Shown here piece by piece: positions 137 through 20,000 of a stretch of 64,000 nucleotides of DNA. The DNA comes from Anaerolineae bacterium (GTDB lineage Bacteria > Chloroflexota > Anaerolineae > Promineifilales > Promineifilaceae). A program made the translations under genes and the position numbers. The notes below the pieces were generated by a model, which was not told the DNA's origin, searched no databases, and was given only the letters and a program-made list of their open reading frames with translations. The stretch is from assembly GCA_023954475.1 (NCBI GenBank), contig JAMLHW010000011.1, positions 1 through 64,000 on the forward strand, in the 5' to 3' direction. The first letter of the stretch is position 1; each line of letters begins with the position of its first letter.

Positions 137-3100
137 ATGAACAGGCGCTACGAACTGTTGGGCACGCTGGGAATCGAAGACGATGGTCACGTGTCGGCGG
201 TGATGAAGTACGGCAAGGGGTGTGCCCTACTCGCCTATTTGATTGTCGACGGGCAGGCACACAGCCGCGAGACTGTCGCCGATCTGCTCTGGGAAGCCAC
301 CTCAACACAACAATCGCTGCGCAATTTGCGCGCCCTGCTGCACAAACTGCGACCGCTAGCGCCGGAGCTCAGCGTCTCCCGCAAGCAGCTCTCATTCCAG
401 CGAACCGATGCTGTTTCGGCCGATTTTTATACCCTACAAGCGGCGTTGGATAGTGACGATATCGGCCGATTGTACAGCGCCAGGGCGCTGTACAAAGGGA
501 CGTTACTCGACGGGTTCTATCTGGACGATGCCCCTATGTTTTGGGAATGGCAATTGCTGGCTAGAGAGCGCCTGCACCAGCGGGTTTGGGACGGCTATTA
601 CCGCGTCTGCACCACGTATGAGGCAGATCGCAACTGGGGGCTGGGCGTCGACGCGGCGCGGCGCTGGCTGTGGCTGGATCCGCTGGACGAAACGGTGCAC
701 CAATGGTTGATGCGCTTCCTCGCCGCCAACGGCCAGAAAGCGGCTGCCATCGCCCAGTACGAAAAATGCCGCCGGCTGCTTGCCGGGGAGTTGGGCGTTG
801 AACCGGGCACCACGACGCAAGCGCTTGTTGAGCAAATTCGGCAACTGCCGGATGAAGGCAGCAGCACACTCGTACAGCCGGTCACCGTCACTGAGTTGCC
901 GCAGCCGGGCGAATCGGCCGAACCGGGCGCGCTCCCGCCGCACTCGTACCTGCCGTATCACCGCAACGCAATCTTCACCGGTCGCAACAGCGATTTGCGG
1001 CGATTATCAGAAATGCTGTTGCCCACCACCACGAGCAGCGCCGGACGCTTGACCAGCGCGGTGGTGCTGACCGGCATGGGTGGGCTGGGCAAATCCCAGC
1101 TCGCCGTCGAATACGCCTACCGCTACGGGCGCTATTATCCCGGCGGCGTCTTTTGGCTCAATTTTGACGACGCGGAGCATGTCGCTGAACTGGCGGCCGA
1201 ATTTGGCAGCGAACGCGGCATGAACCTGTATGCTGCCGACGACCGCCTCGACCTGCACAGAAAGACCGAGTTGGTGAAACGCGCCTGGCAGGAGCAAACC
1301 CCACGCCTGCTGATCTTTGACAATTGCGAAGATGAAAACCTGGCGGCGGCGTGGCTGCCCGTATCTGGTGGCTGTAGCGTCTTGATCACCAGCCGTCATA
1401 CCACTTGGTCGAAGGCGTTGCCGCTTACCGTGCATCCTCTTGACACCTTGCTCCGCGCCGAGAGCGTCGATTTGCTCAGACGGCTGGCCGAATGGCTCGC
1501 GGAGCCCGAGGCCGACTTGATCGCTGCGGAGGTGGGGGATTGGCCGCTGGCGCTCCATCTGGCAGGCAGTTTCCTGGGTGCCAATCGCGACTTACGGTCC
1601 CAGGCTTATATCCGACAACTACGCGAGCAGCGCCTGTTGCAGCACAGCTCGCTGCGAGGCCGACACGTGCGCTATTCGCCGACGGGTCACGAACCGGATT
1701 TGGCGCACACGTTTGCTGTCAGCTACGAGCAGCTCGATTTCGCCAATCCGATTGGTTGGGTGGCCGGGCAACATCTGGCCCGCATCGTCTGTCTGGCTCC
1801 CAATGAGCCGATTCCGTTGACGCTGCTCTTCGATTCATACAGAGATGTGGATAAGGGGGATATCGGCCGATTGCAAGCCGGCGTCAACCGCCTCATCGCG
1901 CTGGGTTTCCTCAATGCCGTCGATGGCGACACCGTGGTCATACACCCGCTACTCGCGGCGTTTACGATTGACCGCCTGGCCCGCGAACCGCTCGGCGACG
2001 CCGCGCCAACGGCCATCGAAAGCACCCTCATTCGGCAACTGGGCCAGCACAAACAAGCGGGCAAATCGCTGGCAACGCTACCCTTTCCGGCGGCGCATCT
2101 GCGCTACGTCGCCCATCGCAGCCTGGATGCGGGCGGCGAGCAGGCTGTGCGCTTTGCCAGCTTACTTGGTGAATACCTGACCGAGATCGCCGACTATGCG
2201 GAAGCCCGCGTCACGCTACAAACCGCGTTGGACCTCACGGAAAAGCAATTCGGCACCGACAGTCTGGCCATGGCCGAGGTCGCAAACCTCATGGGCAGCC
2301 TGTTAGAAGAAGTTGGACGTTACAAGGATGCCGAGACGTATTATGCGCAGGCTCTGGCGATTCGCCTGGAGCAACTGGGCGAGAATCACCTGGATACGGC
2401 GGCCAGCCTGAACAACATGGGCACGTGTTGCATTCGGATCGGGCCGTACATTTCGGCCGAACCATACTTCGCGCGTGCCCTGGCCATTCGGGAACGACTG
2501 CTGGGACCCGACCACCCGCTGACGCTCGGTGTGATGAACAACCTGGGAGTCATGCACAATTACATGGGCAACCGCGACGAAGCGCGCGCCTACTTTGCCG
2601 GCGTGCTGGCTGCGCGCGAAAGGACGCTTGAACCGGACCACCTGTTGCTGGCGTCATCGTTGAACAACTTGGGCGATTTGTTGAGTCGCACCGGCGAACC
2701 GGGCGCAGGGCGTCCGTATTTGGAGCGGTCGCTAGCTATTCGGTCACGCAAATTGGGTGCGGATCATCCGTTGACGTTGGAGTGTCAGACGAATTTGGGA
2801 TTTTCATTAATTCAAATCGGCGACTTCGTGGAAGCGCAAGTGCAACTGGAGCAAGCATTGGCGGGGGCTTTGTCCAAGCTGGGGGAAATGCATACGCTGA
2901 CGGCGCGTATTTACAATACGCTGGGTACTCTGTTTATGGGAATCGGCCGATACGATGCCGCACGCACCCATTTTGAACAGGCCCTAAAAATCCGCGAGGA
3001 GGTCAGAGGCTCTGACGCCCCCGATACGGCTTACAGCTTGCTCTGCTTAGGCGAACTCCTTATCGCCCTGCACGATGAAAACCGCGCCCGTTCGCTCCTT

Positions 3101-3211
3101 GAACGCGCGTTGGCGATTTTGGAGCAGCGCGTAGAGCCGCCCGCCTCGGAACGCGAACGCGTTCAGCGCTTGTTGGCCGAAATGAGTGAAGCAGTTGCCG
3201 GCAAGAGTTGA
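137..3211 (+). CDS. SARP/BTAD-type transcriptional regulator with NB-ARC NTPase and TPR domains
   Basis: Large signal-responsive transcription activator of the AfsR/SARP type, acting in the cytoplasm on DNA. Residues about 5-90 form the OmpR-like winged helix (LADLLW-like VADLLWEA helix), 95-240 the bacterial transcriptional activator domain ending in ELGVEPG, and about 285-560 an NB-ARC/STAND NTPase with P-loop GMGGLGKS (near 313-320) and Walker B-like LLIFDNCED. Residues about 690-1010 are kinesin-light-chain-like TPRs, repeating patterns such as ALAIRLEQLGENHLDTAASLNN. ATP-driven assembly of STAND regulators on a ligand or partner is known for the family; the signal here is unknown. It is a full paralogue of the gene at 4538-7693. 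It ends 6 bp from the convergent ldhA stop. The Shine-Dalgarno is weak (GGGAG about 20 nt upstream), so the start is likely but not certain. Confidence 0.88.
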   Translation: MNRRYELLGTLGIEDDGHVSAVMKYGKGCALLAYLIVDGQAHSRETVADLLWEATSTQQSLRNLRALLHKLRPLAPELSVSRKQLSFQRTDAVSADFYTLQAALDSDDIGRLYSARALYKGTLLDGFYLDDAPMFWEWQLLARERLHQRVWDGYYRVCTTYEADRNWGLGVDAARRWLWLDPLDETVHQWLMRFLAANGQKAAAIAQYEKCRRLLAGELGVEPGTTTQALVEQIRQLPDEGSSTLVQPVTVTELPQPGESAEPGALPPHSYLPYHRNAIFTGRNSDLRRLSEMLLPTTTSSAGRLTSAVVLTGMGGLGKSQLAVEYAYRYGRYYPGGVFWLNFDDAEHVAELAAEFGSERGMNLYAADDRLDLHRKTELVKRAWQEQTPRLLIFDNCEDENLAAAWLPVSGGCSVLITSRHTTWSKALPLTVHPLDTLLRAESVDLLRRLAEWLAEPEADLIAAEVGDWPLALHLAGSFLGANRDLRSQAYIRQLREQRLLQHSSLRGRHVRYSPTGHEPDLAHTFAVSYEQLDFANPIGWVAGQHLARIVCLAPNEPIPLTLLFDSYRDVDKGDIGRLQAGVNRLIALGFLNAVDGDTVVIHPLLAAFTIDRLAREPLGDAAPTAIESTLIRQLGQHKQAGKSLATLPFPAAHLRYVAHRSLDAGGEQAVRFASLLGEYLTEIADYAEARVTLQTALDLTEKQFGTDSLAMAEVANLMGSLLEEVGRYKDAETYYAQALAIRLEQLGENHLDTAASLNNMGTCCIRIGPYISAEPYFARALAIRERLLGPDHPLTLGVMNNLGVMHNYMGNRDEARAYFAGVLAARERTLEPDHLLLASSLNNLGDLLSRTGEPGAGRPYLERSLAIRSRKLGADHPLTLECQTNLGFSLIQIGDFVEAQVQLEQALAGALSKLGEMHTLTARIYNTLGTLFMGIGRYDAARTHFEQALKIREEVRGSDAPDTAYSLLCLGELLIALHDENRARSLLERALAILEQRVEPPASERERVQRLLAEMSEAVAGKS

Positions 3212-4537: not shown

Positions 4538-7500
4538 TTACTGATTCAACAATGCTGCCCGGCTCGCCTCCATTGCCACTATAAAGCGCCACAGGGCTAA
4601 CTGCTCGAATAGCGTCCACGCCTCCCGCCATAACTTCTCACCAGTTGCTGTGTCACCGTGTGCCAATTCATATAGCGCCCAGTGCCAGAACAGTTCAGCG
4701 CGTTTGAGTTCCGAGTTCAACGTGTCATAGTGGTGCTGTGCCTTGACAAAGCAGGCGTGTGCATCGTAGGCGCTGACCAGCGCCGCGTGTTGGGGATTGG
4801 CCTGTGCCGCAGCGACGACACGTGCAACAGTATGCCAGGCATGGCCCAGCGCACGCGATGATGGTCGAGATTGGGCGGCTGCCAGTGCAGACTCGGCTGC
4901 CGTCAGCGCATCGGCAATTTTATCCTGTTTCAGGCAGGCGATGGCTAGCGTTCGATAGACACCGACCAGTGCGTGCCAATCTTCCGGCATGCGTGTCAAC
5001 AATGACCGGGCGCCGACTTCCGCCTCACGAAAATGGCCTGCCTCCACTTGCGCGTGGTGCAAATTGCTGAGGTCAAGCAATTCCTGCGACCGCACCCCGG
5101 TATGGCGTGACAAATCACGCGACTGGATGAACCATGCGATTGCTTGCTCGAAATCCCCCTGCGCCTTGGCTGTCTCGCCCAAGTTGCCGATGATGGGAGC
5201 ACGGCTCTCCTCCACGCCATATTGATCAACCAGGATTAGTGCAGCCCGCAGCCGCTCTTCGGCACGCTCGAAGCGGTTGAGCAAGAGAATATCGAGCAAA
5301 GCCTGCAGGTTGAGTACCGCAATTGTCACCGCCGGATCGTTGGCTTGGGCAGCCAGTTCGGCCGATTCTTGAGCGGCAGCGAGTGCGGCCTCCGTTTGAT
5401 AGCGGTTGCCCAGGATCCAGCCTTTTTGTTTGAGAATGATCGCCATCATGACCGGGTGGTCGCCGGCGGTCGGACGCAAACGGTGCTCAGCCTCCTCCAT
5501 CAGCATCAGCGATTGCAACTCATTCCCACGTAGCCCGGCGATAATGCCCTGCAAGTAGCATGCGGCTCCCTGCCCATAGGCATCGTCCGGCGCAGCCGCA
5601 GTCAATGCCAGTTCGGCGTAAGTCGTAGCCGCATCGTATTCGGCAATTGCTTGCAGGTGCTGTCCCATGGCAATAGCCAGCCGGTTGGCCGACGGATGGT
5701 CCTGTGCCAGTGCCGCATCGGTGGCATGGCGCAGGTGTGCAACCGCATACGGCAGTGCTAACTGAATCGGGGCCCGCCCCAGGCGTGTTGTCAGCGGCTC
5801 CAACAGCGCACGCGCCACATCCGCAAGCGCCGCTGCATGTTCGTCGGCGTCCATCCGTAATGCAAACCCGGCGACGAGTCGGTGCATGATGACGTGTTCG
5901 TCGCCTTCATATTCCAGTAACCCCAGCGAGATTAACCGAATCAGCCCATCTTCGGCCGATAATTGTGTCTCCATATCGGCGTCAGCAGGCAAAACAGTGG
6001 CCAGCAGTAAACTCCAGGACAGCGGTTCGCCTGGTGCGAAGCAAGCAGCACGTGTGAACAAGCGGCGGGCGATGATGTCGGATTCGGCCGAATCGTTGAG
6101 TTGCGCCACGCTGAGCGCTACCGTATGCGCTACATCCATCACGTGACCAGTCGGGGAGAGTTGGGTGCCACGCCCGTGCAGCGACGGATGGCTCAAACCA
6201 CCCATTGCCCGCAGTTCTTGCAAATAGCGGACAGGCGTGATCTGCCGGTAACGCCGTAGAAAACCACCCGCCAAATGCAGCGCCAGCGGTAATCGGCCGA
6301 CCTCTTCAGCAATGGCTTCAGCTTCCTGGGGTGTGAGATGGGGAGCAAGCGTCTGCAGCAAGCCGGCGCTTTGTGCGAGGGTAAGCAACGGCAGCGACAA
6401 AGTGACGATACCTAGATCGGCCGACCAGTATCCGCGTCGGCTGGTGACTAGCACCGAGCAACCGCCGGTAACCGGCAGCCATTCCATCAGCAGCGACTCA
6501 TCCTCGCAACTGTCAAAAATCAGTAGGCGTGGCACCGGTTCCTGCCACACTTGCTGTACGCGGCCAACTTGCTCGGCTAATGTCAACTTGTCCATAGAGT
6601 GGAAAAGACGCAGGCCACGCTGGTCGCCGGTCGCCGCCACCTCTCCCAGCACATCCTTTACCACGCCGAAGTTGAGCCAATACACGCCCCCACTGTAGTA
6701 ACGTCCATAGCGAAAGCAATACTCAACTGCCAATTGTGTCTTACCGATCCCGCCTATACCCTTAACGACAGCTGCACGAACAGCCGGCTTGTCGTCACTG
6801 TCGGGCAACAGCCAGGACGCCAGTTGCAGCAGCTCATTTATACGCCCCGCAAATGTATTGTTTCGCCGATACATGACTCTGGATTGCGGCGGCAGCGGAC
6901 CAGGCTCCGCTAAATCACCGCCAGGCAACGCTGGCAGCGATGTTGATACCGCGAGAGAAGGCAAAGCGGGAGACGTTGCAACTACCGCTTGCTGCAACTG
7001 CTTCAACAGCGCCCTCGTCTCGTCTTCCGGTTCGACGCCTAATTCCTGCCACAGCCGTAGGCGGCACTGCTCGTACATCTGGGTCGCCCCCCGAAAATCG
7101 CCAACGGCAGCCAGCATCGTTATCAGATGCCGATATGCCGCTTCGTTGAGGTCATCTAGCGCCAGCCAACGGCGGCTGAAATCAACAGCGCGCTGCCAGT
7201 TGGCGTGGGCGGCATGGTCAGCGATGACGCGCTGGAAGATCGCCTCCATACGCATGCGCAACTGTTCACGTGTGATGAGCAGCCATTCGGTAAAGCGCGG
7301 CGCATCGGTGACAGTGAAATTGGCAAGCATTTCACCGCGGTAGACAATGAGCGCCTCCTCCAGAGCATCCATCGTGCCACGACTGAGCGCATCGCGCAGC
7401 ACGTAGTAATCGACAACGGTATCAGAGTGTGGCTGAAAAGCGAGCGTCTTGCGCGTGACAACCAGTTCAGGCACCCATGGTCGGATGCGTGACACTAATT

Positions 7501-7693
7501 GACGCAGATGTTTGAGAGCTTGTTGGCTGGAGGTCGATTCCCAGAGTAGATCGGCCAGAAATTCGCGTGGTTGTGCCTCCCCAGTGACGATCAGGTAACA
7601 TACAAGAGCCGAACCCCGATCGCTCTGCACTACTCTGGACGGCAAACCGTCGTCGTCGATTTCTAGTGTGCCGAATAACTTGAAGCGCCGCAT
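4538..7693 (-). CDS. SARP/BTAD-type transcriptional regulator with NB-ARC NTPase and TPR-like domains (paralogue)
   Basis: The 1,051-residue paralogue of the regulator at 137-3211 has the same order: winged helix (about 5-90), BTAD (95-240, ending ELGVEPED), NB-ARC with P-loop GIGGIGKT near residue 314 and LLIFDSCED, then alpha-solenoid repeats to the C terminus. The shared signatures FRYGRYY and WLNF after the P-loop show a common origin, while the C-terminal repeats have diverged from regular TPRs, as expected if the two sense different partners. It is transcribed divergently from the small gene and giant LamG gene starting at 7948/8193, whose promoter carries a direct repeat of the kind SARPs bind. 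A role as their activator is therefore a reasonable inference, not shown. Confidence 0.88.
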   Translation of the reverse strand: MRRFKLFGTLEIDDDGLPSRVVQSDRGSALVCYLIVTGEAQPREFLADLLWESTSSQQALKHLRQLVSRIRPWVPELVVTRKTLAFQPHSDTVVDYYVLRDALSRGTMDALEEALIVYRGEMLANFTVTDAPRFTEWLLITREQLRMRMEAIFQRVIADHAAHANWQRAVDFSRRWLALDDLNEAAYRHLITMLAAVGDFRGATQMYEQCRLRLWQELGVEPEDETRALLKQLQQAVVATSPALPSLAVSTSLPALPGGDLAEPGPLPPQSRVMYRRNNTFAGRINELLQLASWLLPDSDDKPAVRAAVVKGIGGIGKTQLAVEYCFRYGRYYSGGVYWLNFGVVKDVLGEVAATGDQRGLRLFHSMDKLTLAEQVGRVQQVWQEPVPRLLIFDSCEDESLLMEWLPVTGGCSVLVTSRRGYWSADLGIVTLSLPLLTLAQSAGLLQTLAPHLTPQEAEAIAEEVGRLPLALHLAGGFLRRYRQITPVRYLQELRAMGGLSHPSLHGRGTQLSPTGHVMDVAHTVALSVAQLNDSAESDIIARRLFTRAACFAPGEPLSWSLLLATVLPADADMETQLSAEDGLIRLISLGLLEYEGDEHVIMHRLVAGFALRMDADEHAAALADVARALLEPLTTRLGRAPIQLALPYAVAHLRHATDAALAQDHPSANRLAIAMGQHLQAIAEYDAATTYAELALTAAAPDDAYGQGAACYLQGIIAGLRGNELQSLMLMEEAEHRLRPTAGDHPVMMAIILKQKGWILGNRYQTEAALAAAQESAELAAQANDPAVTIAVLNLQALLDILLLNRFERAEERLRAALILVDQYGVEESRAPIIGNLGETAKAQGDFEQAIAWFIQSRDLSRHTGVRSQELLDLSNLHHAQVEAGHFREAEVGARSLLTRMPEDWHALVGVYRTLAIACLKQDKIADALTAAESALAAAQSRPSSRALGHAWHTVARVVAAAQANPQHAALVSAYDAHACFVKAQHHYDTLNSELKRAELFWHWALYELAHGDTATGEKLWREAWTLFEQLALWRFIVAMEASRAALLNQ

Positions 7694-7771: not shown

Positions 7772-7887
7772 CTACCCGGCGACGGTGAGATGCAATCGAC
7801 TTGATAGTTTTTTCCTGACTCCCTGCGAATGGGTTTAGCTTTCACACATGCCCCACGAACTACTCATGGGTCGTGCCGTTTGCCTGT

Positions 7888-7938
7888 GACGATCATACGC
7901 TGTCGTGCGACGATCATTCGACGTTTGATATGTATACT
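7888..7938 (+). promoter_or_regulatory. Activator-type promoter: direct repeat GACGATCAT over the -35, then TATACT
   Basis: GACGATCAT is repeated at 7888-7896 and 7909-7917, 21 bp apart (two helical turns). The second copy occupies the -35 position of TATACT at 7933-7938 (17-bp spacing), and there is no sigma70-like -35. Direct repeats overlapping the -35 and in phase with the helix are the known binding arrangement of SARP activators. A divergent SARP gene ends its 5' side at 7693. The transcript would begin within a few nucleotides of ATG 7948. Confidence 0.5.
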
Positions 7939-7947
7939 GTGGCGCGC

Positions 7948-8148
7948 ATGGAAGATAATTATCGAGCCTATCTAATCCGTTTAACTCGCCACGACAGCCG
8001 CTCACCGTGGCGCGGTATGTTGCAGGATGCCCGCGACAATACCGTACGCCACTTCGCCACCGAGCGTGAACTATACCTGTTTTTGATGGAGCAACTGATG
8101 TATACGCCGCCTGCCACTGCTATAGGCAACGGCGACGGGCAAGATTGA
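7948..8148 (+). CDS. Small conserved-looking protein of unknown function, leaderless or nearly so
   Basis: Sixty-six residues starting MEDNYRAYLIRL and containing SPWRGMLQDARDN and a FATERELYLFLMEQL helix. I recognise a general resemblance to short Chloroflexota proteins that combine YLxRL, WR and a C-terminal FLEQL-type helix, with no known function. The ATG at 7948 is preferred to in-frame starts at 7873 and 7930 because the -10 element TATACT ends at 7938, so an earlier start would lie upstream of the mRNA. The gene is followed after 44 bp by the giant exported protein, so the two are probably cotranscribed. Confidence 0.6.
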   Translation: MEDNYRAYLIRLTRHDSRSPWRGMLQDARDNTVRHFATERELYLFLMEQLMYTPPATAIGNGDGQD

Positions 8149-8192
8149 GTATTGGAAGCAATAGCTTGCGTAACAATAAAGGACGCTATCAT

Positions 8193-11100
8193 ATGAAAAA
8201 GAATCACCCCATCCTATTTGTTGGATTATTGCTTACATTGGCTTTGTTGAGTGCTGCACTGCGGTCGGTGGCGAGCGCTGCCCAGGATGACACGCCGGTG
8301 ACTGATCGCGCTGTCGTCGAGCGTGCCTGGGCGTTGACTCATCAGTCGAACAGCTTTGCATACACGTCGCGCATTACGCAGACGGTCCACCCGGCAGCAA
8401 CGCTGGGCAATATCGGCCGAACCCCCCAAACCGACCAAATCGGCCTGCAGGGGCGGCTCGACCGTGCTGCCGAATCCGTCGATCTCACACTTTGGCCCGA
8501 CGCCGCCTTTGATCCCGACTCCGGCATCGCGCTCCAGTTGCGCGGCAACCGTGTCTACCAACGCGCCGAAGACGGCGCCTGGCGCGAGGTCGAGAACATG
8601 ACGGGACTGGCCGCGCCCGGCGGCGATCCATTGGCCTTTCTCAGCGGCGTCACGAACGTCGCCGTGGCGGGCGCCGAGAACCGCGTACTGCCGGGAACAG
8701 ATACTACCGTCCACTATACGCGCTACACGTTCGATTTCAACGGAGCGGCCTTCGCCGAGCACGTACGCGTCGCGACGCAGCGCCAGATGCAGACGACCGG
8801 CGACTTGCTGCCGCAGATGGAATTGGAGCGTTCGGCAGTGCTGACGCAGACGACCGGCAGCGGTGAGATGTGGATCGACGACTACGGCCTGCCTGTGCGC
8901 CTGAGTCTATCGCTCGATCTGGGTGAGCAGGCGAATGGGGAACGGGGTTCGGCCGAAATCACGACCGATCTTTCCGACTTCGACCTCACCGGCATTAGCG
9001 CTGCCGCCACCCCGTTCCACCGTGATCCGGCGCTGTGGCTGCGTACGCGCCTGCTAACGTCCGCCGTCGCCGATACAGCCGCATCAACGGCGTTGGTGCT
9101 TGTTGTCCTTGCCGCCGTTGTTCTATCCATCCCATACTGGCAGCATCGCCGCTTCTACACCGGCATGGCCATCGCCCTCGTTTTCTCCATGGTCGTTCCA
9201 CCGCTGCTGGACACCTACCAGGTACATGCCTTCTCAACCAATCAAGCAGCCCGTCAAGCCCAATTTGAAGCCGACCGTACCGAAGCCGACTCTTTCCGCG
9301 CCGCCCAGGAGCAGTTGACCGCCACCACCTGGCAACCTCTGCGCAATCCGCTGCTTGCCGGCCGCGACCAGGCGGCGATCGACGGCGCACCGGCGGCTTT
9401 TGCGATCCAGTCCACCGGCGTCATCACCGCCACCGACACCGACGGCGACGGGCTGAGCGATGCCGACGAAGCCTACTACGGATCGTGTGCCGACCCGCTG
9501 CTCTGTCCCGACCTGGACGCGACCGACAGCGACGGCGACGGCCTGGGCGACGGGCTGGAGGTTCACGCGCTGGGCACGTTCCCCGATCAATGGGACACGG
9601 ATGACGACCTGATCACTGACACGCTGGAGATTAGCGGCTTCAGCTACAACGGCCTGACCTGGTACCTCGACCCGACCGAAGCCGACAGCAACCGCGACGG
9701 CCTGTCTGACATGGTTGAATGTGAGGTGTGGTCAAGCCTTTCGCCTCTCTTTGATCCGCTCGCCGCCTGCCCCGATACGGACGGCGACGGCACGCCCGAC
9801 GTCTTCGACAGCGACAACGACAACGACGGCGTACACGACAGCGTCGATTTGTCGCCGTTTGATGTGTCGGCCGTCACTTTTGGCGATGCCGCACCGTTTG
9901 AGTTGACGGTGAGCAACGCGGCGGTCGGCCAGCCGTTGCTGGTGGATTTGCAGATTCGGCCGAATAACCCCGACCACCTCACCTACTACAACTCCGTCCT
10001 CGACTGGCCGTCCGGCGACACGCTCGGTCAGGTCGTGCGCACCGCCTCGACCACCTGGGCCGATACCCTCAACGCTGACCTCCAGAGCACCGATGCCAAC
10101 GCCGCCAACGGCGACATCCGCCTCGTGCCGCTTCTGGAAATCACCATCCCATACACCACCGGCCATTACGCCAACCTGCCCGTGCTCGACAGCGCGCCCA
10201 TCACGCGCACCCGCACCATGACCGTCGGCCAATGGCTCGACACGACCGAGCTGGCAGCGCACGGCATCAGCGTCTCCGACGCTCCCGACGGCTCCGGCGA
10301 CCTTTTTCTCTACGCCCCGCTCGTCCTGCAGAAGAACGAAACGGAGGGCGGCCCCGCCGCCTTTTACGCCCGCCTGTTTTATTGGCCGGAGCAGGGCAGC
10401 GGCGGCTTTGTCGATTGGGGCAGCCGCCAGCAGGCGCGGCTGGCATGGTCGGTGCAGATGCTGGTCAACGACTGCACCACACCCGGCGACCCCACCACCT
10501 GCACCACCACCGACCACCTCTCCGTCGTCCACCGCTACGTCGATGACTGGACGCTCACCGGCATGACCGTTGCCGAACAGCACGGCTACGATGTCGCGCT
10601 GCTTTACGAAGACCCCGCCAGCGATCCCGACCTGACTGCCGACGATCAGCTCTGGGCGTTGAGCTGGCAGTTGGGCAACACCTTCCTGCGTGGCCGCGAC
10701 TGCGAACCGTTCGTCGCCGAGGTCTGCCAGCCGGACGGCCAGCGCGACGTACGCATCGACAACGTGGTGCTGCAGATGAACGGCTGGTTCACCGACACCA
10801 TCTACACCGTCGTGGGGGCCAACTCCTACCCCCACATCGGCTACCAGGGTTATGTCGCCACCGTGGACGTGCCGAACGTTCTCAACACCGACTTCGCCGC
10901 CCACACCGGGATCCAGCCCACCATCCTCTTCATGCAGGAAACCACCCAGCGCAGCACGGCGCTGGGTGACGGCATCGTGCTCAACGGCGCGCTGGTTACG
11001 GCCGATCTCGACCCCGCCACCCATTCGTTGGACGTCGTCACCGGCCTCAACTGGGCTCCCTACCAGTATCTGGACGGAAGCTGGCAAAGTATGCCCCTCT

Positions 11101-14100
11101 CGACCTACCTCAGCGGTCTGGTCGCGACCTACCAAACCGTTCCCTTCTTCCAGCCGCTCGATACGTCCGTTCCCCTGTCGGTCGAGGAAGCGGACGGCAA
11201 GCTGATCTGGCTGCAGATCTACTACGCCACGCTCGTAGAAGGCGTGACCCAACTTGTCCAGACAGACGGCACACTGTTGTGGGCGCCTTTCCCGACACCA
11301 GAACTGCCTGAATTCAATATCACCAGCAGTTCACTGCCGTCGCGCAGTGGTACAGGTGTTACCTGGGTTGCCTACGAATGGAAGGGAAATCTGGACGTCA
11401 TCACCAATGTACCCAAGTCATACAAATATGGTAGTTGGAATTACTTCTTTTACCGTTTCCGCGCTAATGCCGAGGCAAACAAGCTCACAGTGGGGCTAAA
11501 AAAGAATTGGGGCAACAGTGAGAGAATCGGCATGTACAACCTGGCGATGCAAGGCGCGATGTTAGCCACGGCCGCTGCCGTTGTCGCCCTGACTGCCGGC
11601 GGCTTGCTGTCGGGAAACAGCGTGGTGCAAGACGTCGGCAAGTACGTCGGTCTCGTTCTGAGCATCGTCGTGCTGACGATTGCGTTCGGAAACTGGGTTC
11701 AGGCTGCGCGGCTGGCGCTCGACGGCGGGCGCTGGTTCAGTAGCCTGAGCAAGCTGAAGGCGGCTTCCAAGAGCTTTCGCTCCGGCCCGGCGAGCATTGC
11801 GCTGGGTATCGTTGTCAGCTTCGCGATGCTGGCACTGCTGGTCATGACCGGCAAACTGACGCCGGGCACTATCGAGTTCAACTTTGCGCTGGCGGCCACG
11901 CTCGCCAGCGTCATCATCACGCTGGCAATCGTGTTGATCGAACTGATTCTCTATGCGCTCGGATTGTCACCGCTTCTCCTGCTGTTCTATCTGGTCGACG
12001 CACTGGTGGAGTTGTTTGGCGTCAAGGGGCTCACGGCGCGCCTGACTGAGTGGCTGGCGCAGTGGCTCTATGTCGTCGAAACCTCCGTTACCAATCTGTC
12101 CGATCAGGCCCGGCTCGACTTCGCGCTCGCCGGCATGGCGCTGACCGACGCCGGCGCAGGGTTCCGCGTGGGCAATTCGTTTGCCCTCTCCATGACGGTC
12201 ACCAACACGCTGCGCTACAACGACCGCCTGACGGAGGAACTGGCGCGGCGTAACACTTTCCGTTACTTCATCGATACCGGCCCGATCGAGCGGGAGGATC
12301 AACTGGCGCTGTCGCAGATGGAAAATGAGTGGCAGGTGCCGGGCGACAAGCAGTTGCGCGTGCGCGAGACGGTGCGCTCAACCACGCCGATCACCTTTAC
12401 GGCCAGCGGCGTCAACGCCGTCCCCAACGCTTACCTGACTGAGTCGTTTGTCAGCTTCTACGAGCAGTGCTGGTTGGGCTTCGGCACGTTCTTCGAAGAG
12501 CTGCGCTGCGACCTGACCGAGTTCCGCGACTCGATGCCGCTGCCGGTCGGGGATTCGCTCGTCTTCGACATCTTCCCGCCGACGCTGTCCGCTTTTCACG
12601 ACATGGCGTGGAGCTTCCCCGACCGCATCACGCAAACGCTGACGCTGCCGCTGCAAACCGACCACGACGGCGACGGGCTGCTCAGCGTGGCGCAGGGCGG
12701 CACCGATCCCGACGACACGCAGTATGATGTGGACGGCGACACGCTCTCCGACTACTTCGAGCAGTCCATCGGCACCAATCCACTGCTGGCGGATACAGAC
12801 GGCGACGGGCTGAGCGACGCCGAGGAGCAGTGGCTGCGCACCAATCCGCTGCTGGCGGACACAGACGGCGACGGGCTGAATGATTACACCGAGGTGCACG
12901 GCTGGCTCTACGCCTACCAGACGACACCGACAGTGCGCACGATGCGCGTGTGGTCCGATCCGTTTTCGGCCGATTTCGACGCCGACAACCTCTCCGACCT
13001 CGACGAATTCATCTTCGCCCAGCACCCGCGCGTGCCCACCGATGCCTCCATCCTGCGCACGCAAGTCACCTTCGACAACCTCTACGTCAGCGAGAGCAAC
13101 GCCCCCCGGTTGCTGCTGCCGTTCGACGAGAGCGTCGGCGCGACCGCCTTCGCCAACGTCTCCGGCGCGGTGCGCTACGCCACGTGCAGCGCTGCCTGCC
13201 CCCAGGCCGGCGGCGCGGGCGTCTTCGGCGCGGCGCTGACCCTCAACGGCGTGGATGAAGCCGTGCAGATCAGCGACGCCGACGCCTACAACTTTGACAC
13301 CGACGACGATTTCACGGTGGCCGTTTGGGTGCGGCCGGACAGCTTGCAGAGCGATCTGCTCAGCCCCAACAACGTCATCGTCGAGAAGTGGCCGGTCCAG
13401 GGGGGCGAGAGCGCCTGGCCGTTCACCATCCGCTACTACAATCAAAACGTAGGCAATCACGGCCGGCTTTACGTCAGTCGCAGCGACGGCCTCGGCCTTC
13501 CGGCGGCCATTGTGTCGACGCAGGCGATCAACGACGGCGCGTTCCATCACATCGCCTTCGTCAAGCAGGGGGAGACGCTGTCTCTCTACCTGGACGGTGC
13601 TCTGGAGGGCACGGCCACCGACACGACGAGCGGGGCGACGACCAACAGTTCGGCGTTGTTTATCGGCCGAACCGGCGTCCCTCCCATTGAAGGCGCTAAC
13701 TTCTTCGGCGGTGACATCGACGATCTGGTGATCTTCGACCGCGCGTTATCGGCCGAATCCATCACCACCCTCGTTAGCGGGCGCTACGACCTCGACGACC
13801 ACATCGTCGCCCCCGGCGCGCCGCTCACCTACGGCGCGACCGTCACCAACACCAACGCCCTGCTCGCCGCCAACGGCAATCTGGTCGCCACCAGCCGCTA
13901 TCTCGACCCGCTCATCGACGAGCCGGAAATGGTGCTCAACTTTGCCGCCGAAGATTTCGTCACCTTCATCCCCAACGACAAGGGCGAAAGCAGCCAGGTC
14001 AGTTGCATCAACACTGCCTGTCCGACGGCTGACGCGCTCGCGTTGGCATTCGACGGCGCAGAGGACGTGCTGACCATTCCGCCGTTCATCTACGAAGACA

Positions 14101-14357
14101 CCAGTCTGACGCTGGCGTTCCGCATCAAGGCCGATGCACTGCCCGCCGCCGGTACCGTGCGCCACATCGTCGACACCGTCCACCAGCGCCGACGGCACGC
14201 CCGTCACCGGCGACCTCGACATCTGGCTCGACTCAACCGGCTACCTCTGGTTCGACGTGGCCGGCGACACGCCGACGACGCTCCTGACCGGCTGCTCCTC
14301 CACCAGCGGCGACAGTTGCACCACCAGCAACCCGTGGACCCAGCCCCAGCGCAGTGA
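8193..14357 (+). CDS. Giant exported LamG/calcium-repeat surface protein, N-terminal part (reading frame broken near 14170)
   Basis: First segment of a gene that originally spanned 8193-21061 (about 4,290 residues). The start is ATG 8193 with AAAGGA 9 nt upstream and a signal peptide (MKKNHPILFVGLLLTLALLS). An upstream TTG at 8145 has no support. Two membrane segments lie at about residues 290-345, aspartate-rich thrombospondin-3-like repeats (DTDGDGLSDADE) at about 415-560, hydrophobic segments at about 1116-1275, a second block of DTDGDGLSDAEE repeats at about 1490-1610, and a LamG domain (WVRPD, FIGRTG, DDLVIFDRAL) at about 1635-1865. A second LamG domain is cut: sense continues to VRHIVDT, after which this frame turns into arginine/histidine-rich nonsense, while the +1 frame continues with SADGTPVTGDLDIW. 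The true breakpoint is about 14160-14190; the stop at 14357 is an artefact of the shift. Confidence 0.75.
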   Translation: MKKNHPILFVGLLLTLALLSAALRSVASAAQDDTPVTDRAVVERAWALTHQSNSFAYTSRITQTVHPAATLGNIGRTPQTDQIGLQGRLDRAAESVDLTLWPDAAFDPDSGIALQLRGNRVYQRAEDGAWREVENMTGLAAPGGDPLAFLSGVTNVAVAGAENRVLPGTDTTVHYTRYTFDFNGAAFAEHVRVATQRQMQTTGDLLPQMELERSAVLTQTTGSGEMWIDDYGLPVRLSLSLDLGEQANGERGSAEITTDLSDFDLTGISAAATPFHRDPALWLRTRLLTSAVADTAASTALVLVVLAAVVLSIPYWQHRRFYTGMAIALVFSMVVPPLLDTYQVHAFSTNQAARQAQFEADRTEADSFRAAQEQLTATTWQPLRNPLLAGRDQAAIDGAPAAFAIQSTGVITATDTDGDGLSDADEAYYGSCADPLLCPDLDATDSDGDGLGDGLEVHALGTFPDQWDTDDDLITDTLEISGFSYNGLTWYLDPTEADSNRDGLSDMVECEVWSSLSPLFDPLAACPDTDGDGTPDVFDSDNDNDGVHDSVDLSPFDVSAVTFGDAAPFELTVSNAAVGQPLLVDLQIRPNNPDHLTYYNSVLDWPSGDTLGQVVRTASTTWADTLNADLQSTDANAANGDIRLVPLLEITIPYTTGHYANLPVLDSAPITRTRTMTVGQWLDTTELAAHGISVSDAPDGSGDLFLYAPLVLQKNETEGGPAAFYARLFYWPEQGSGGFVDWGSRQQARLAWSVQMLVNDCTTPGDPTTCTTTDHLSVVHRYVDDWTLTGMTVAEQHGYDVALLYEDPASDPDLTADDQLWALSWQLGNTFLRGRDCEPFVAEVCQPDGQRDVRIDNVVLQMNGWFTDTIYTVVGANSYPHIGYQGYVATVDVPNVLNTDFAAHTGIQPTILFMQETTQRSTALGDGIVLNGALVTADLDPATHSLDVVTGLNWAPYQYLDGSWQSMPLSTYLSGLVATYQTVPFFQPLDTSVPLSVEEADGKLIWLQIYYATLVEGVTQLVQTDGTLLWAPFPTPELPEFNITSSSLPSRSGTGVTWVAYEWKGNLDVITNVPKSYKYGSWNYFFYRFRANAEANKLTVGLKKNWGNSERIGMYNLAMQGAMLATAAAVVALTAGGLLSGNSVVQDVGKYVGLVLSIVVLTIAFGNWVQAARLALDGGRWFSSLSKLKAASKSFRSGPASIALGIVVSFAMLALLVMTGKLTPGTIEFNFALAATLASVIITLAIVLIELILYALGLSPLLLLFYLVDALVELFGVKGLTARLTEWLAQWLYVVETSVTNLSDQARLDFALAGMALTDAGAGFRVGNSFALSMTVTNTLRYNDRLTEELARRNTFRYFIDTGPIEREDQLALSQMENEWQVPGDKQLRVRETVRSTTPITFTASGVNAVPNAYLTESFVSFYEQCWLGFGTFFEELRCDLTEFRDSMPLPVGDSLVFDIFPPTLSAFHDMAWSFPDRITQTLTLPLQTDHDGDGLLSVAQGGTDPDDTQYDVDGDTLSDYFEQSIGTNPLLADTDGDGLSDAEEQWLRTNPLLADTDGDGLNDYTEVHGWLYAYQTTPTVRTMRVWSDPFSADFDADNLSDLDEFIFAQHPRVPTDASILRTQVTFDNLYVSESNAPRLLLPFDESVGATAFANVSGAVRYATCSAACPQAGGAGVFGAALTLNGVDEAVQISDADAYNFDTDDDFTVAVWVRPDSLQSDLLSPNNVIVEKWPVQGGESAWPFTIRYYNQNVGNHGRLYVSRSDGLGLPAAIVSTQAINDGAFHHIAFVKQGETLSLYLDGALEGTATDTTSGATTNSSALFIGRTGVPPIEGANFFGGDIDDLVIFDRALSAESITTLVSGRYDLDDHIVAPGAPLTYGATVTNTNALLAANGNLVATSRYLDPLIDEPEMVLNFAAEDFVTFIPNDKGESSQVSCINTACPTADALALAFDGAEDVLTIPPFIYEDTSLTLAFRIKADALPAAGTVRHIVDTVHQRRRHARHRRPRHLARLNRLPLVRRGRRHADDAPDRLLLHQRRQLHHQQPVDPAPAQ

Positions 14358-17070
14358 CACCGCCCTGACCCCCGGCGTCTGGCGCCATGTCCTGTGGGCC
14401 GCCACGCCATTGCAAACGCGGCTGTACGTTGACGGCGACCTGGATAGCTGGTATCTGGCATCAGCGACGCCGCCCGTCGTGGTCGGCCCCGGCACACTGG
14501 GCGGCGCGCGCAACAGCACCAATCTGTTCGACGGCAGCCTCGATGAACTCGTCGTCTACGACAAAGAGCACTGGCGCATCGGCGGCATCGTGCCCGATCC
14601 CGTTCTGGAAATTGTCGCCGGTCGCTACACCTTCAAGGACGGCGGCAGCAACAACCGCGTCTACGTGCCGACCGCACTCTACACGTTCAACGGCTACGTG
14701 GCGCCGGGCGATTCCCCCGCCAGCGTCTTTGCCAACCTGGCCGGCCCGCCCGTCGTCTGCGCCAGCGCCGCGACGTGCCCGGCCACTGTCGCCAACGGCT
14801 ACGTCGGTCCGGCGGTCGACTTCGACGGCATCGACGATTACCTGCCGCTGGCGCAGCGCGCCACCGGTCAGGAAGTCAGCGTTTCTTTCAAGCTCAAGGT
14901 CGAAGCGCTGCCTGCCGCCGGGCAGACCGTCTACATTCTCGACTCACTCAGCACCGACCCGACCGCCTACACCATCGTGCCGGCCGTCATCGCGCTCGGC
15001 TCGGACGGTCTCCTGACCTACCCGGTCAGCGGCGTCTTTGGCTATCTCAGCCTGTTCAACTTCGGCACGGCGCTCGGCCAATGGGTAGACATCACGTTTA
15101 ACACAGCGGCCGGCAGTTGCGACGGCAATCCGTGCGTACGAATCACCACGACGGTGAACGGCACGTCCAAGGACCATGACGTGCCGACCGTCAACTTCAT
15201 GACCCCCACCGAAGTCGGTGACGGCCGCCTGGGCAGCCGCCGCAACGGCACCGGTTTCTTCAACGGTCAGATCGACGAATTCAAGGCGTCCGCCACAACC
15301 TTCCCGGACACAACCGACCTCTACGACGTGCCGTTTACGCCGGCGCCCGCGCCGCAGGTCGGCTGGCGCGACGGCGTCAGCAACGGGCGCACCGCCTTCT
15401 GTGACACGCTCGACAGTTGCCCGCTGCCGGCCCCCGGCGGCCTGTTTGGTGACTTGCTGGCGCTGGACGGCAGTGACGACTTCCTGCGCGCCACGCCCAT
15501 CGACCTCGCCGGTCGGTCGTTCACCGTCGCCTTCTGGTATGACCGGGAGACGCTGGGCACGGACGACGTGATCATCTCCCAAGGGCAGCAGTTGCCCGGT
15601 CAGGGATTCCACATCGGTTTCCGCGCCAACAACAACTTCACCTGCGCTTTCTACGGCGATCCGCTCGATACGGCGCCGTTCACCGACCTGAATGCGCACC
15701 ATTGGGCGTGTACCTTCGACGCGGCCACCGGCCTGCGTACCCTCTACCGCGACGGCGTGCAGGTGGCCCAGAATACGCCGACCGCGCCGTATACCGGCAG
15801 CGGCGACGTTCTGATCGGCACGTCGTACGGCGTCACCTTTGCCGAAGGGCTGGTTGACGAACTGGTCATCATTCCGGCGGCGGTCGATGCGGCTGGCATC
15901 AACGTGCTGATGAACAAACCGTATCCGCCCATCACTGTCGATCAGCCGTTTGTGCCGTTCACGGTTGCGCCGCTGAGTTCGGCCGATATCCAAAGCACCG
16001 CCCGGGTCGCCACCAGCGTGCCGGAAAGCGTGCACCTCTTTGCTGAAGAGGTCGAGGCGGCGCTGCAACTGTCGCAGCCGATTCCTTACCCCATCATCGA
16101 CACCTACAGCAGCGACCTGCTCTTCTACCTGCCGCTGGACGACGTGCCGGGCAGCACGCTGTTCGACAACCTGATCGGCAACGACATCGCCTGCGCCGGC
16201 GGCAACGCCGCCCGCTGCCCGGACGCCGGGCTGCGCGGGCCGGTCGATCGCGCCGTCTTCTTCGACGGCGTCGATCTGCTCTATTGGGACACCGACGTCG
16301 ATGTGACGGCCGGCGCGACCATCGCCGGCTGGGTCAAGGCCGACCGCGGCACGGTCGCCAGCGCCGGGCCGCTGGAGCTGGATGTCAACCGCATTCAGGT
16401 CCGCAGCTTCTGCGACATCGACGCCAGCGTCAACTACGAAGCCGGCATGGTGCTGGAATCCACCACCTTCTCCATGCCCGAAAACGAGTGGGTCCACCTG
16501 GCCGCCACCGTCAGCCGCAGCAGCGGCGTCGCCACCGTCTACGTCAACGGCGCCGTCGCCGCCACGCTGGACACCTGCGTCAACGACCACCCGTCCAACA
16601 CCTTCGACAACACCTATTACGAAGCCCTGGCGATTGGCGGCAACATCCCGCAGCTCGGCTACGATCCGCTGCACGGCTATCTGGACGACCTGCGCATCTA
16701 CGATGTCGCGCTGCCGCAGAGCGCCGTACAAACTCTGGTCGACAAATCCGCGCCGCTGCTGCGCTTTGAATTCGACGAAGCGGCCGACAGCGTGACGTTT
16801 GCCGACACCACCGGTGAGATCGTGGGCACGCCGACGCTGCGCGCGTGCGCCGACCTCACCCTGGGCAGCGCCACCGTCACCGCCGCCGCCGCCAACACGA
16901 CGCACATCGACATCGCCCTGGGCGGGCAGCCGGTCACGCAGCGTCCGCTGGACGCCTTTGCGCCCACCGCCGCCCTCAGCATCACGCTCGCCGTCTGCGA
17001 CCAGCAGGCCATTGACCGTCAGCGCCGTCCGCGACGGCGCGGCGGTGGTGCTGGGCAGCGTGACGGTTGA
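14134..17070 (+). CDS. Giant LamG surface protein, middle fragment between two frameshifts
   Basis: Central part of the same polypeptide, in the +1 frame. Meaningful sequence runs from about 14182 to 17010; the nominal ATG at 14134 lies in the out-of-frame overlap and is not a real start. It completes the interrupted LamG domain and carries three more (around 14670-15290, 15355-15880 and 16100-16740). Each has the order: opening strand, CxxCP-type cysteine pair, LDGxDDFL or FDGIDDY strand, FTVAFWY/IAGWVK strand and a closing VDELVI or DDLRIYD strand. Such concanavalin A-like domains usually bind glycans or proteins outside the cell. Base composition is very GC-rich compared with the flanks. 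A second +1 shift near 17000-17025 ends the sense frame at TLAVCDQQ; the +2 frame picks up at LTVSAVRDG. Confidence 0.7.
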   Translation: MHCPPPVPCATSSTPSTSADGTPVTGDLDIWLDSTGYLWFDVAGDTPTTLLTGCSSTSGDSCTTSNPWTQPQRSDTALTPGVWRHVLWAATPLQTRLYVDGDLDSWYLASATPPVVVGPGTLGGARNSTNLFDGSLDELVVYDKEHWRIGGIVPDPVLEIVAGRYTFKDGGSNNRVYVPTALYTFNGYVAPGDSPASVFANLAGPPVVCASAATCPATVANGYVGPAVDFDGIDDYLPLAQRATGQEVSVSFKLKVEALPAAGQTVYILDSLSTDPTAYTIVPAVIALGSDGLLTYPVSGVFGYLSLFNFGTALGQWVDITFNTAAGSCDGNPCVRITTTVNGTSKDHDVPTVNFMTPTEVGDGRLGSRRNGTGFFNGQIDEFKASATTFPDTTDLYDVPFTPAPAPQVGWRDGVSNGRTAFCDTLDSCPLPAPGGLFGDLLALDGSDDFLRATPIDLAGRSFTVAFWYDRETLGTDDVIISQGQQLPGQGFHIGFRANNNFTCAFYGDPLDTAPFTDLNAHHWACTFDAATGLRTLYRDGVQVAQNTPTAPYTGSGDVLIGTSYGVTFAEGLVDELVIIPAAVDAAGINVLMNKPYPPITVDQPFVPFTVAPLSSADIQSTARVATSVPESVHLFAEEVEAALQLSQPIPYPIIDTYSSDLLFYLPLDDVPGSTLFDNLIGNDIACAGGNAARCPDAGLRGPVDRAVFFDGVDLLYWDTDVDVTAGATIAGWVKADRGTVASAGPLELDVNRIQVRSFCDIDASVNYEAGMVLESTTFSMPENEWVHLAATVSRSSGVATVYVNGAVAATLDTCVNDHPSNTFDNTYYEALAIGGNIPQLGYDPLHGYLDDLRIYDVALPQSAVQTLVDKSAPLLRFEFDEAADSVTFADTTGEIVGTPTLRACADLTLGSATVTAAAANTTHIDIALGGQPVTQRPLDAFAPTAALSITLAVCDQQAIDRQRRPRRRGGGAGQRDG

Positions 17071-20000
17071 TGGGGCCAATCCTTCGGCCGATTCCCAAAC
17101 CTTTACCAGCGGCGGCGACGCGGTCACGCTGAACTGGACGATGGGCGCGACCGAGCTGGCCCCCAATCCCAAACCGGGCACGCGCGGACAAATCGGCAAC
17201 ACTGCCTTCTTCGACGGCGCCGGCCGCATCACACTGCCGGTCACTGCGCCGGTTAACGCGCTCACCAGCGATTTCACGCTGCTGGCGTGGATTCGGCCGG
17301 AAACAGTGATCGGCCAGCACACCATCGCCGCCTCCGGCCAGACCGCTTCGGCCAACGGCATCAGCCTGAGTGTGAACGACGGTCATTTGGCCCTGTCTAA
17401 ACACGACGCGACCCTGTTGGCCGCTACGTCCAGCATCAAGCCGGACCAGTGGCAGCACGTCGCCGTCGTCTTCGACAGCGCCTTCGACGCCCACTTCTAC
17501 GTCAACGGCGTCTTCGTCGAAACGGAGACCAGCGCCACCGCCGCCCAGGCCAACAGCGACGACCCGTTCTTCATCGGCGCGACTGAGCTGGCGGGCGTTC
17601 TCGCCAATCCGTGGCTGGGCGAAATCGACGAATTCGCCGTTTACCAGCGGTCACTGACGGCCGATGAAATTCGCGGCACCTACCTGCGCGAATTGCGCTG
17701 GTACCGCGACACGTACCGCGCCGCCATCATTATCGACACGACGCCGCCGACCGTCAGCCTGCTCTCGCAGCCGGGCTACCGTCCGCTCGCCCCGACGCTG
17801 CTCGGCGTCACGGCGACCGACAACAACGGCGTCGCTCTGGTCGAGATCGGCGTGCAGGCTCCCGGCGAGACGGTATTCACCTGGCGCTACGCCCCGCCGT
17901 GTCAGGCCGAAGTCGGCCGCCTCAATCCGCTCAACAGCGGTGCGGCGTGGTGCCCGACGTTTGCGCCGGCGATCGCCGGGCAGCACGCGGTGCAGGTGCG
18001 GGCCTACGACCGGGTCGGCAACGTGGCGTATGGCCCGGTCATCACGCTCACCGTGGACGACCAGCCTCCGACGGCTGCGTCGGGTTACAGCAACACGCGG
18101 CTGTCGGCAACGCCTCTGCCCAACCGCACGCTGGCCTGGGCGGTCACGCTGAGCGGCACGATCAGCGATCCGCCGGTCGGCGCTGTCGCCGGCAGCGGCG
18201 TCGCCACTGACACGGTGACGGTTGAGCTGATCCACATCAAGAGCGGCGAACTGCTGGGCAGCACCGCGCAGACGGCCGTGGTGAGCGGCGGGACCTGGTC
18301 GATTGATTACGTGACGAGCGGCAAGCGGCCGTCCGGCGCGTACTCGGTGAGAGTCGCGGTGGCGGATGCCGTCGGCAACGCGCTGGCGCCGACCGTGGTC
18401 GGCACCGTGCGGCTCGATGCACGCCCGCCGAGCAGCGATCTCTACGTCCGGCCGCGCGGCGACGGGAATAACGGGGTGGGAGGATTCGGCCGAACCAACG
18501 CCGCCACCTACCCCGACACCTGGCTCAGCGGCTACCTCACCCAAAGCGTGACCCTCTACGGCACCACCAGCGAATTCCCCGTGTGGGGCGGCGCCCTGGC
18601 CCGCTTCAGCTTTGAGGAGAGCAGCCCGCCATTCTACAACGGCAGCGCGCTGACCGATGGGCAACATCTGACGTGCGCCACCTGCCCGTCGTCCGTCAAC
18701 GGCGCCTTCGGCAAGCGGTTGTACTTGCCGTCCGGCGATGTCCTGACCGTGATCACCGATACGGCCGAGATCGACGCGCTGCAAACGCTGTCCATCGCCT
18801 TCTGGTGGATGCAGGACAGCCCGCTGCCGTTCGGCACGGCGACGCTCGTGGCGCTCGACGGCAAGGGTGTGGTGCAACTGGCACCTGACCGGGCGCAGTT
18901 CAGCCTGACCATCGACGGCGTGCCGCAGACCATAACCGTGCCCAACCCCGTGCCCGAGGGCCAGTGGACGCATATCGCCGCCACTTACGACGGCGTCACC
19001 ATGCGGCTCTACGAGAACGGGGTGGAAGTCGCCGCGCTGGCGGTCAGCGGCGCTGTCGCCGCCGGCACCGGGCTGCAAGTCGGTGATTTGGCCTACGGCG
19101 CGGACGGTTTCTTCGACGAGTTGGTCATCCATGACCGGGCGCTGACGGCGCAGGAGGTCGAAGCGCTGGCTGATCCGACGCCGGTCGGCATCGGCGCGGT
19201 CGAGCTGTGGCTGGAAAAAGCACCGCTCGGCGGCCTGCCTGATCCGGAAGCATGGACCAGCGCCACGGTGACCACCGGCGGCGGCGTGGCGATGTGGGAG
19301 TACACGCTGCCGACCGACCTGGAAGGATATTACTTCATCCACGTGCGCAGCAGCGACCTGAACGGCAATGTGGGCAACCCCGTCACGCCGTGGCACGACG
19401 TCATCGACATGGTGGCGCCGCGCATCCAGTTCGAGGCGGTGTCGATCGGCCTGGGCGCGGCGACGCAGACGCAATACACCTTCACCATCGACGACTTCGT
19501 GCTCGACCCGGCCACCGTCACCCACCCGTGCCATCCGACCGAACTCGTCTACGACGTGTACGATCTGCCCGGCCAGGCGCTGGACGGCGCCGTCTACCGC
19601 ATCACCGGCACCTGCCGCATCTACGACCCCAGCCAGGGGCTGAACCCGCCGCCCGGCACGGTCGCGGCGTGCGATGCGGTCGGCCATTGCGGTAGCGACA
19701 CGCAAGATCCCATCTTCGGTGAGTCAGCCAATGTCGCCATCGCCACGCCGATGCGCTTTGAAACGCTCCCACTGACAACGACGATTCCCATCACGGGCGG
19801 TGTTTTCGGCTATCTAGAGCCGGTGAACACATTGACGGTGACGGCCAACGCGGCGCTCATCGCGGTGCTGGACATAGGCGGCGTTTACTTGGATACTTGG
19901 TCGGCCGACTGGTCACCGACCGCGACTGGACCATACACGCTCGCAGCTGTCGCCCAACTGGCAGGCGGCACGCTGTTGACCGACACGATACAGGTAACGC

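Follow-up and report, generated by a model that had tools for sequence, protein, structure and literature searches.

SARPs are the antibiotic switches of the Actinobacteria, and by the rule that applies to them the second repeat of the operator stands 8 bp upstream of the –10 element. Little regulation has been worked out in the Chloroflexota. Among the closest described systems is that of AfsR, a large SARP of Streptomyces coelicolor, at the afsS promoter. There, two SARP protomers are reported to sit next to each other on a pair of 11-bp repeats whose centre is at –29.5, with sigma region 4 resting on the protomers rather than in the –35 element, and with R92 and T88 contacting T–38 and G–36, respectively, of the template strand (PMC10936776). 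PimR, a SARP-LAL regulator that acts at the pimM promoter, is described as using heptameric direct repeats with 4-nt spacers, in three copies, located between the regulator and target genes (PMC5930380); this operator does not overlap a –35 and serves antibiotic genes. EmbR of Mycobacterium tuberculosis has the SARP domain fold too, and carries an FHA domain (PMC10936776). Leaderless genes of the TANNNT kind, finally, are described as carrying a –10 element immediately ahead of the start codon, its first T ~12 bp from the ATG (PMC3160421).

The region considered here, 7886–7947, lies in what we call the window: the entire 64,000-nt stretch of DNA analysed, with which contig C3 of an Anaerolineae genome of 5.12 Mb begins. 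Like AfsR and afsS, it combines a large SARP-type regulator with two 11-bp repeats that overlap the –35 position, and the gene next to it, the putative target, encodes a small protein, a likeness of arrangement (compare PMC10972967). Unlike AfsR, the system belongs to another phylum, the regulator gene diverges from its target, the repeat has another word, and a gene for an exported protein lies downstream. As with PimR, the predicted operator sits between regulator and target, with heptamers 4 nt apart and perhaps three of them; it differs in overlapping –35. The regulator has ATPase/TPR-like parts in the place of the FHA domain of EmbR. The –10 element is close to the start codon, as in leaderless TANNNT genes, with the differences that an activator site is predicted and that the distance from the first T to the ATG is 15 bp. 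It is very probable, judging from the sequence, that 7886–7947 is an AfsR-type, SARP-dependent promoter serving a small-protein gene with little or no leader, together with the gene of a giant exported protein.

The repeat and its geometry

A sequence-only reading of this DNA had pointed to GACGATCAT, repeated at a 21-bp period over the –35 of TATACT, as a SARP-type operator. The repeat is present, as an exact 9-mer at 7888–7896 and 7909–7917, and a 17-bp spacer would put the –35 hexamer at 7910–7915, within the second copy. In the form GACGATCATN{10,14}GACGATCAT, the pair occurs a single time in the 5.12-Mb genome. Dinucleotide shuffles of the 254-bp intergenic region produce an exact 9-mer at period 21 in 3 cases of 1000, and 44 of the 1000 contain one at some period between 8 and 60; taken alone, the 21-bp repeat is just moderately unlikely by chance. 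The pair that was named is the outer one, and an inner pair was overlooked: in GACGATCATTC/GACGTTTGATA (7909–7930) a further copy follows 11 bp downstream, directly upstream of the –10 (Table 1). The direct repeat is real, then, and it is the choice of pair that has to be amended. For the composite of 11-bp repeat, 7–9 bp and TANNNT, none of 1000 shuffles of the intergenic region reached the score of this locus. With –38 assigned to the first base of the heptamer and the –10 counted from –12, as is the convention, the downstream heptamer runs from –27 to –21 and 8 bp are left, which is the spacer found in the window. This identity of spacing with AfsR at afsS lends weight to the SARP-type interpretation of the repeat.

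Table 1. Features of the putative promoter and of the genes on either side of it
Feature	Positions	Strand	Remark
SARP-type regulator of 1051 aa (DNA-binding N-terminus, BTAD, TPR-like C-terminus)	4538–7693	–	
Recognition helix, residues 56–71 (predicted)	7481–7528	–	from alignment, AfsR contacts and covariation
Outer heptamer GTGACGA, possible third half-site	7886–7892	+	21 bp upstream of heptamer 1
Operator heptamer 1 (predicted), GCGACGA, upstream half-site	7907–7913	+	over the –35 position
Operator heptamer 2 (predicted), TCGACGT, downstream half-site	7918–7924	+	11 bp from heptamer 1
Spacer, 8 bp, heptamer 2 to –10	7925–7932	+	
–10 element TATACT	7933–7938	+	
Predicted transcription start region	7944–7948	+	placed at the customary distance of +1 from a –10
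Small protein, 66 aa, beta-beta-beta-alpha	7948–8148	+	start codon 9 nt after –10
Shine-Dalgarno-like AAAGGA of second gene	8178–8183	+	9 nt before ATG
Giant protein, first open frame	8193–14357	+	signal-like N-terminus; TSP3 and laminin-G-like domains

The alternative that fares best keeps the 21-bp repeat as the operator proper and treats the 11-bp similarity as secondary. The heptamers at 11 bp are imperfect copies, matching at 7 of 10 bases, and the 21-bp copies are more alike, matching at 12 of 14 (a likeness that no shuffle of 1000 reached at this period and 26 of 1000 reached at some period between 8 and 60); SARP spacers of 4–15 nt, moreover, are among those reported (PMC10972967). The relatives speak against it, for at the place linked to the –10 they keep a period of 11, not 21, and we consider this alternative unlikely.

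The relatives are other loci of the small-protein family described below. The earliest batch comprised 40 regions covering 41 of the 46 places other than the window that a single query had found, with L045, a small-protein match that lacks a start codon, left out; removal of near-duplicate upstream regions later reduced 123 to 119. Counting 10-base windows with at least 9 identities in the 250 bp upstream, period 11 was found at 18 of 42 loci in the early set (0.22 in shuffles) and at 39 of 119 (shuffle mean 0.64, maximum 3), with periods 10 and 12 at 1 and 2 of the 119. It recurred in two later sets, at 11 of 40 loci against 0.37 in shuffles, and at 16 of 40 against 0–3 for other periods, the second comparison being one across periods and not with shuffles. 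Composite scores of at least 8.5 were reached at 64 of 119 loci (0.27 in shuffles), and in the later sets at 12 of 40 (0.05 in shuffles) and 13 of 40. Because the composite score, which combines repeat, spacer and TANNNT, was shaped after the set of 119 had been viewed, the later sets weigh more, as does the simple test by period. An 8-bp spacer is the commonest, in 30 of 40 operators with scores of at least 9, under a scoring that itself gave 8 bp a bonus of 0.5. Throughout, the repeated word differs from locus to locus while the geometry stays fixed.

Period 21 was seen at 8 of 119 loci (0.6 expected). We rejected it as a feature of the family: the copies are mostly unrelated repeats, and they coincide with the operator solely at the window and at L039. 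Since the period-21 repeats at other loci are nearly all unrelated sequence, we take the 11-bp heptamer pair as the predicted core operator and the 21-bp copy as an outer, local extra.

Within its own genome the word is rare. CGACG-N6-CGACG followed by 8–10 bp and TANNNT occurs once, at 7908 (1 match in the reversed control), and the 4-base form, GACG, occurs at 5 sites (3 in controls), 3 of which adjoin BTAD genes of the same genome, on contigs C2, C3 and C8. There are 14 BTAD places in the genome in all, and the action of the regulator in the window is probably local. One of these sites, G000:C2:40846-40875 (minus strand), is a putative operator of the GTGACG type divergent from a BTAD gene; profile searches of the genome for the small protein list no family match there, and hence this type of site is not tied to the small protein.

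The regulator, its proposed action and the predicted start of the message

The divergent gene had been read as that of a SARP, and this holds up. Its product matches Pfam BTAD (E=1.5e-16), and an AlphaFold model of residues 1–244 (pLDDT 97.3) has AfsR (8k60/8hvr) and EmbR chains as its six best PDB matches. No Pfam match covers the winged helix by itself; as modelled, the N-terminus is a winged-helix DNA-binding domain followed by BTAD, which is the SARP architecture. The remainder is TPR-like, with matches below cut-off to Pfam TPR_MalT (29.4 bits) and, over residues 276–960, to NCBIfam FxSxx_TPR. The P-loop, VVKGIGGIGKT, was read by eye; Pfam finds no NB-ARC in this protein, and finds one, below cut-off, in its paralogue in the window. 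That paralogue is a second BTAD regulator, at 137–3211 (+), with an NB-ARC-like part and many TPR matches. It scores 299.8 against the FxSxx_TPR cut-off of 300, and lies at the start of the contig, where its upstream region is lost.

From these parts we infer a course of events similar to that at afsS. Two copies of the 4538–7693 regulator would bind side by side on 7907–7913 and 7918–7924, where they would stand in for a –35 element and pass sigma region 4 on to the fair –10, TATACT. This would be sigma adaptation, as performed by AfsR. RNA polymerase would then start at about 7944–7948 to make a message with no leader or almost none, in which the ATG of the 66-aa protein would be the first codon. 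The giant exported protein, beginning 44 nt downstream with a Shine-Dalgarno site of its own, would be co-transcribed, and the NB-ARC-like/TPR half of the regulator presumably gates its activity in response to some signal.

Could the site act in the opposite sense? Lying between divergent genes, it might serve the SARP to control its own gene, or to block the promoter of the small protein; a minus-strand TATGAT occurs inside the repeat (L014 forward scan, 8.48), and one SARP, Atr32, is reported to have a negative role (PMC10972967). The repeat, however, is placed and spaced relative to the plus-strand –10 as an activator site would be, and at L037, L163 and L172 the SARP gene lies upstream on the same strand, which makes divergence inessential. 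Repression or autoregulation is quite unlikely on these grounds, and activation is the action we favour.

The small protein might also begin further upstream, or its leader be longer, in which case TATACT would be fortuitous. In-frame alternatives exist, ATG at 7930 and GTG at 7939 and 7873, and in 37 of 64 strong operators among the relatives the ATG follows the –10 at a distance above 20 nt. Alignment with relatives at an N-terminal M-x-x-x-Y supports the ATG at 7948, however, and L036, L037 and L055 have an ATG 6–7 nt after an equally spaced –10; a start elsewhere is accordingly quite unlikely. Over the 64 strong operators, the first in-frame ATG after the –10 comes at 6–9 nt in 19, at 10–20 nt in 4, at 21–50 nt in 18 and beyond 50 nt in 19, and in the remaining 4 at less than 6 nt or at a negative distance. 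Leaderless genes are reported for 4 of 12 Chloroflexi genomes, where they make up 4.7% of genes (2011 survey, PMC3160421). Because 19 of the 64 relatives have so short a distance, and because leaderless genes have been recorded in Chloroflexi, a short or absent leader at the 7948 gene seems likely, with ~0–4 nt predicted. The start codon is indeed about as close to the –10 as the sequence-only reading had it, at 9 nt; its further claim, that the promoter is leaderless, finds support in relatives with a similar distance, with the reservation that the leader predicted here need not be strictly zero.

Operator words and recognition helices

That the word varies and the geometry does not makes the DNA specificity of SARPs readable, and testable, from this set of loci. 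For 60 divergent pairs of regulator and operator, permutations served to gauge the mutual information that each of 222 protein columns shares with the positions of the heptamer (pairs with composite scores below 7.5 were excluded from these training 60, and below 7 from the hold-outs). The highest column of the 222 is R64 (z 12.6 with position 5), followed by Q65 (z 7.9 with position 2 and 6.5 with position 3) and K61 (z 7.5 with position 3). The fourth, F7, is outside the helix; Q58, T54 and R69 come next. By profile alignment, R64, Q65 and R69 correspond to R87, T88 and R92 of AfsR, and so Q65 and R69 fall on the two residues for which base contacts are described in AfsR (PMC10936776). Over all 85 pairs, R64 and Q65 again rank first and second, of 224 columns.

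Distance between operators follows distance between helices when the rest of the domain is allowed for (partial Mantel 0.33, 0 of 5000 permutations), and the reverse term, rest of the domain given the helix, is 0.13 (268 of 5000). Pooling of 75 pairs leaves the helix term at 0.305 (0 of 2000 permutations). Part of the signal fades when relatedness is restricted: after thinning to pairs below 50% identity, which retained 40 of the 60, R64 is still first and helix versus other columns gives p=0.13, and after thinning of the 85 pairs (57 kept, 28 dropped) R64 is first once more and p=0.20 for the helix; R64 is thus the one column that remains clearly distinct under thinning. In the first hold-out, of 15 pairs, the helix has a partial coefficient of –0.07 and the remainder of the domain one of 0.45.

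Prediction behaves in much the same way. In training, leave-one-out prediction from the nearest helix gives 2.04 mismatches against 3.15 at random (n=50), and betters overall similarity only when close relatives are excluded. Predicting new operators in this manner was tried on the 15 hold-out pairs and abandoned, being no better than random (3.17 vs 3.28 mismatches, p=0.40); locus by locus, L213, L215 and L216, which have close helices, came out well and L223 badly. The rules for single residues, all of them chosen after looking at the data, fare variously. R64 with CG held in 12 of 13 against 0 of 2 in the first hold-out (p=0.029), and the strict form of the rule, C at position 5 of both copies, gave no significant difference in 25 later pairs (18 of 23 against 1 of 2, p=0.43). 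K65 goes with G at position 2 in 9 of 9 training cases and 1 of 2 later ones; T65 goes with G at position 4 in 2 of 2 and 2 of 2, and all four T65 loci have AGCG. By eye, the five loci with the helix D-A-K-N-N-L-R-Q (L228, L233, L238, L256 and L259) all have (T/C)AAA(C/T)G. On the strength of the pooled covariation and this agreement by eye, set against the weakening in thinned and held-out pairs, it is likely that a recognition code exists in the family and that relatedness explains part of the signal. In four loci, L065, L111, L062 and L131, the helix has NLS for NLR and the repeats are of the AGAG/AAGG kind, lacking the usual CG.

It is very unlikely that some other OmpR/PhoB-type regulator, such as a PhoP-like one, reads the repeats and that the neighbouring SARP is incidental: such regulators likewise use 11-bp direct repeats, PhoP is reported to share the afsS site of Streptomyces with AfsR and to compete with it there (PMC10972967), and 15 of 41 loci that have no divergent SARP in the sequence covered bear 11-bp repeats as well, but one shared regulator should read one word, and the word instead varies by locus, tracks the helix of the neighbouring SARP and, in its 5-base form at the window, is unique in the genome. 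The claim with which we began, of a SARP-type repeat over –35 read by the divergent SARP, is further supported by the conservation of the 11-bp repeat across the family, by the pairing with SARP genes and by the covariation of operator and recognition helix.

Small proteins, exported proteins and their distribution

The 66-aa protein belongs to no Pfam or NCBIfam family. It is modelled as three strands and one helix, with no PDB fold match at E<=0.001, and 92 members of its own family, compared with Pfam, give scattered weak matches. A single query finds relatives in 23 of 59 genomes. With a 37-sequence profile, the family is found in 46 of 52 genomes of the same taxonomic family, in up to 43 copies per genome, and of 301 genomes sampled from the phylum 51 contain it. 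One peptide pattern retrieved 22 loci in titled records, 21 with Chloroflexi, Chloroflexota or Anaerolineae-level names, Ardenticatenaceae included, and one from Candidatus Aquidulcis, which we take to be a Chloroflexota name as well.

A SARP-type N-terminus lies divergently within 600 bp of 80 of 124 small-protein domains (121 loci). Where at least 1500 bp of upstream sequence is covered, 74 of 107 have the divergent SARP and 33 do not; the later sets are lower, at 15 of 41 and 15 of 40. All five copies in the window's own genome (on C3, C8, C20, C1 and C12) are divergent to a BTAD gene. Tandem layouts, with a same-strand SARP gene upstream, occur at L237, L241, L243 and L246 as well as at the three loci mentioned above.

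Downstream, 103 of 124 small-protein genes are followed by a same-strand frame of at least 150 aa that starts within 900 bp. A crude test, for a charged start and a hydrophobic stretch, gives 91 of the 103 the look of exported proteins; of the other frames at these loci, 37 of 149 pass it. Pfam matches in 98 of the 103, cut at 560 aa for scanning, include beta-helix (9), TSP3 (9), transglutaminase (8), beta-lactamase (6), trypsin (4) and solute-binding (4) domains, among others.

The mechanism proposed is a known one. The module in Chloroflexota, its private operators and the small-protein family are apparently undescribed in the literature searched, and no paper on SARP binding or operators in Chloroflexota was among the matches listed from the open-licence literature. 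What we see is the promoter logic of SARPs recurring many times over in this phylum, in connection with exported proteins and a nameless family of small ones, and the set predicts targets for regulators in uncultured genomes. Whether the Anaerolineae have multiplied a cassette of SARP, private operator, small protein and exported protein, each word having coevolved with its own helix, is a matter on which we lean, by a little, to the negative side. If they have, up to dozens of exported-protein operons per genome would be insulated from each other, and the small protein would serve either the exported protein or the regulator as a dedicated partner. Taken together, the loci would amount, too, to a natural recognition code for SARPs, with T65 for G at position 4, for example, K65 for G at position 2, and loss of R64 accompanied by loss of the central C.

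In the window, the frames 8145–14357, 14134–17070 and 16799–21061 (+) are successive and overlapping, and all have laminin-G-like domains; 8145–21061 resembles one gene of ~12.9 kb cut by two frame changes, for which assembly error, decay and frameshifting are options. The largest set of small-protein genes, 43 copies against 5 in the window's genome, is that of G031, a genome of 7.8 Mb.
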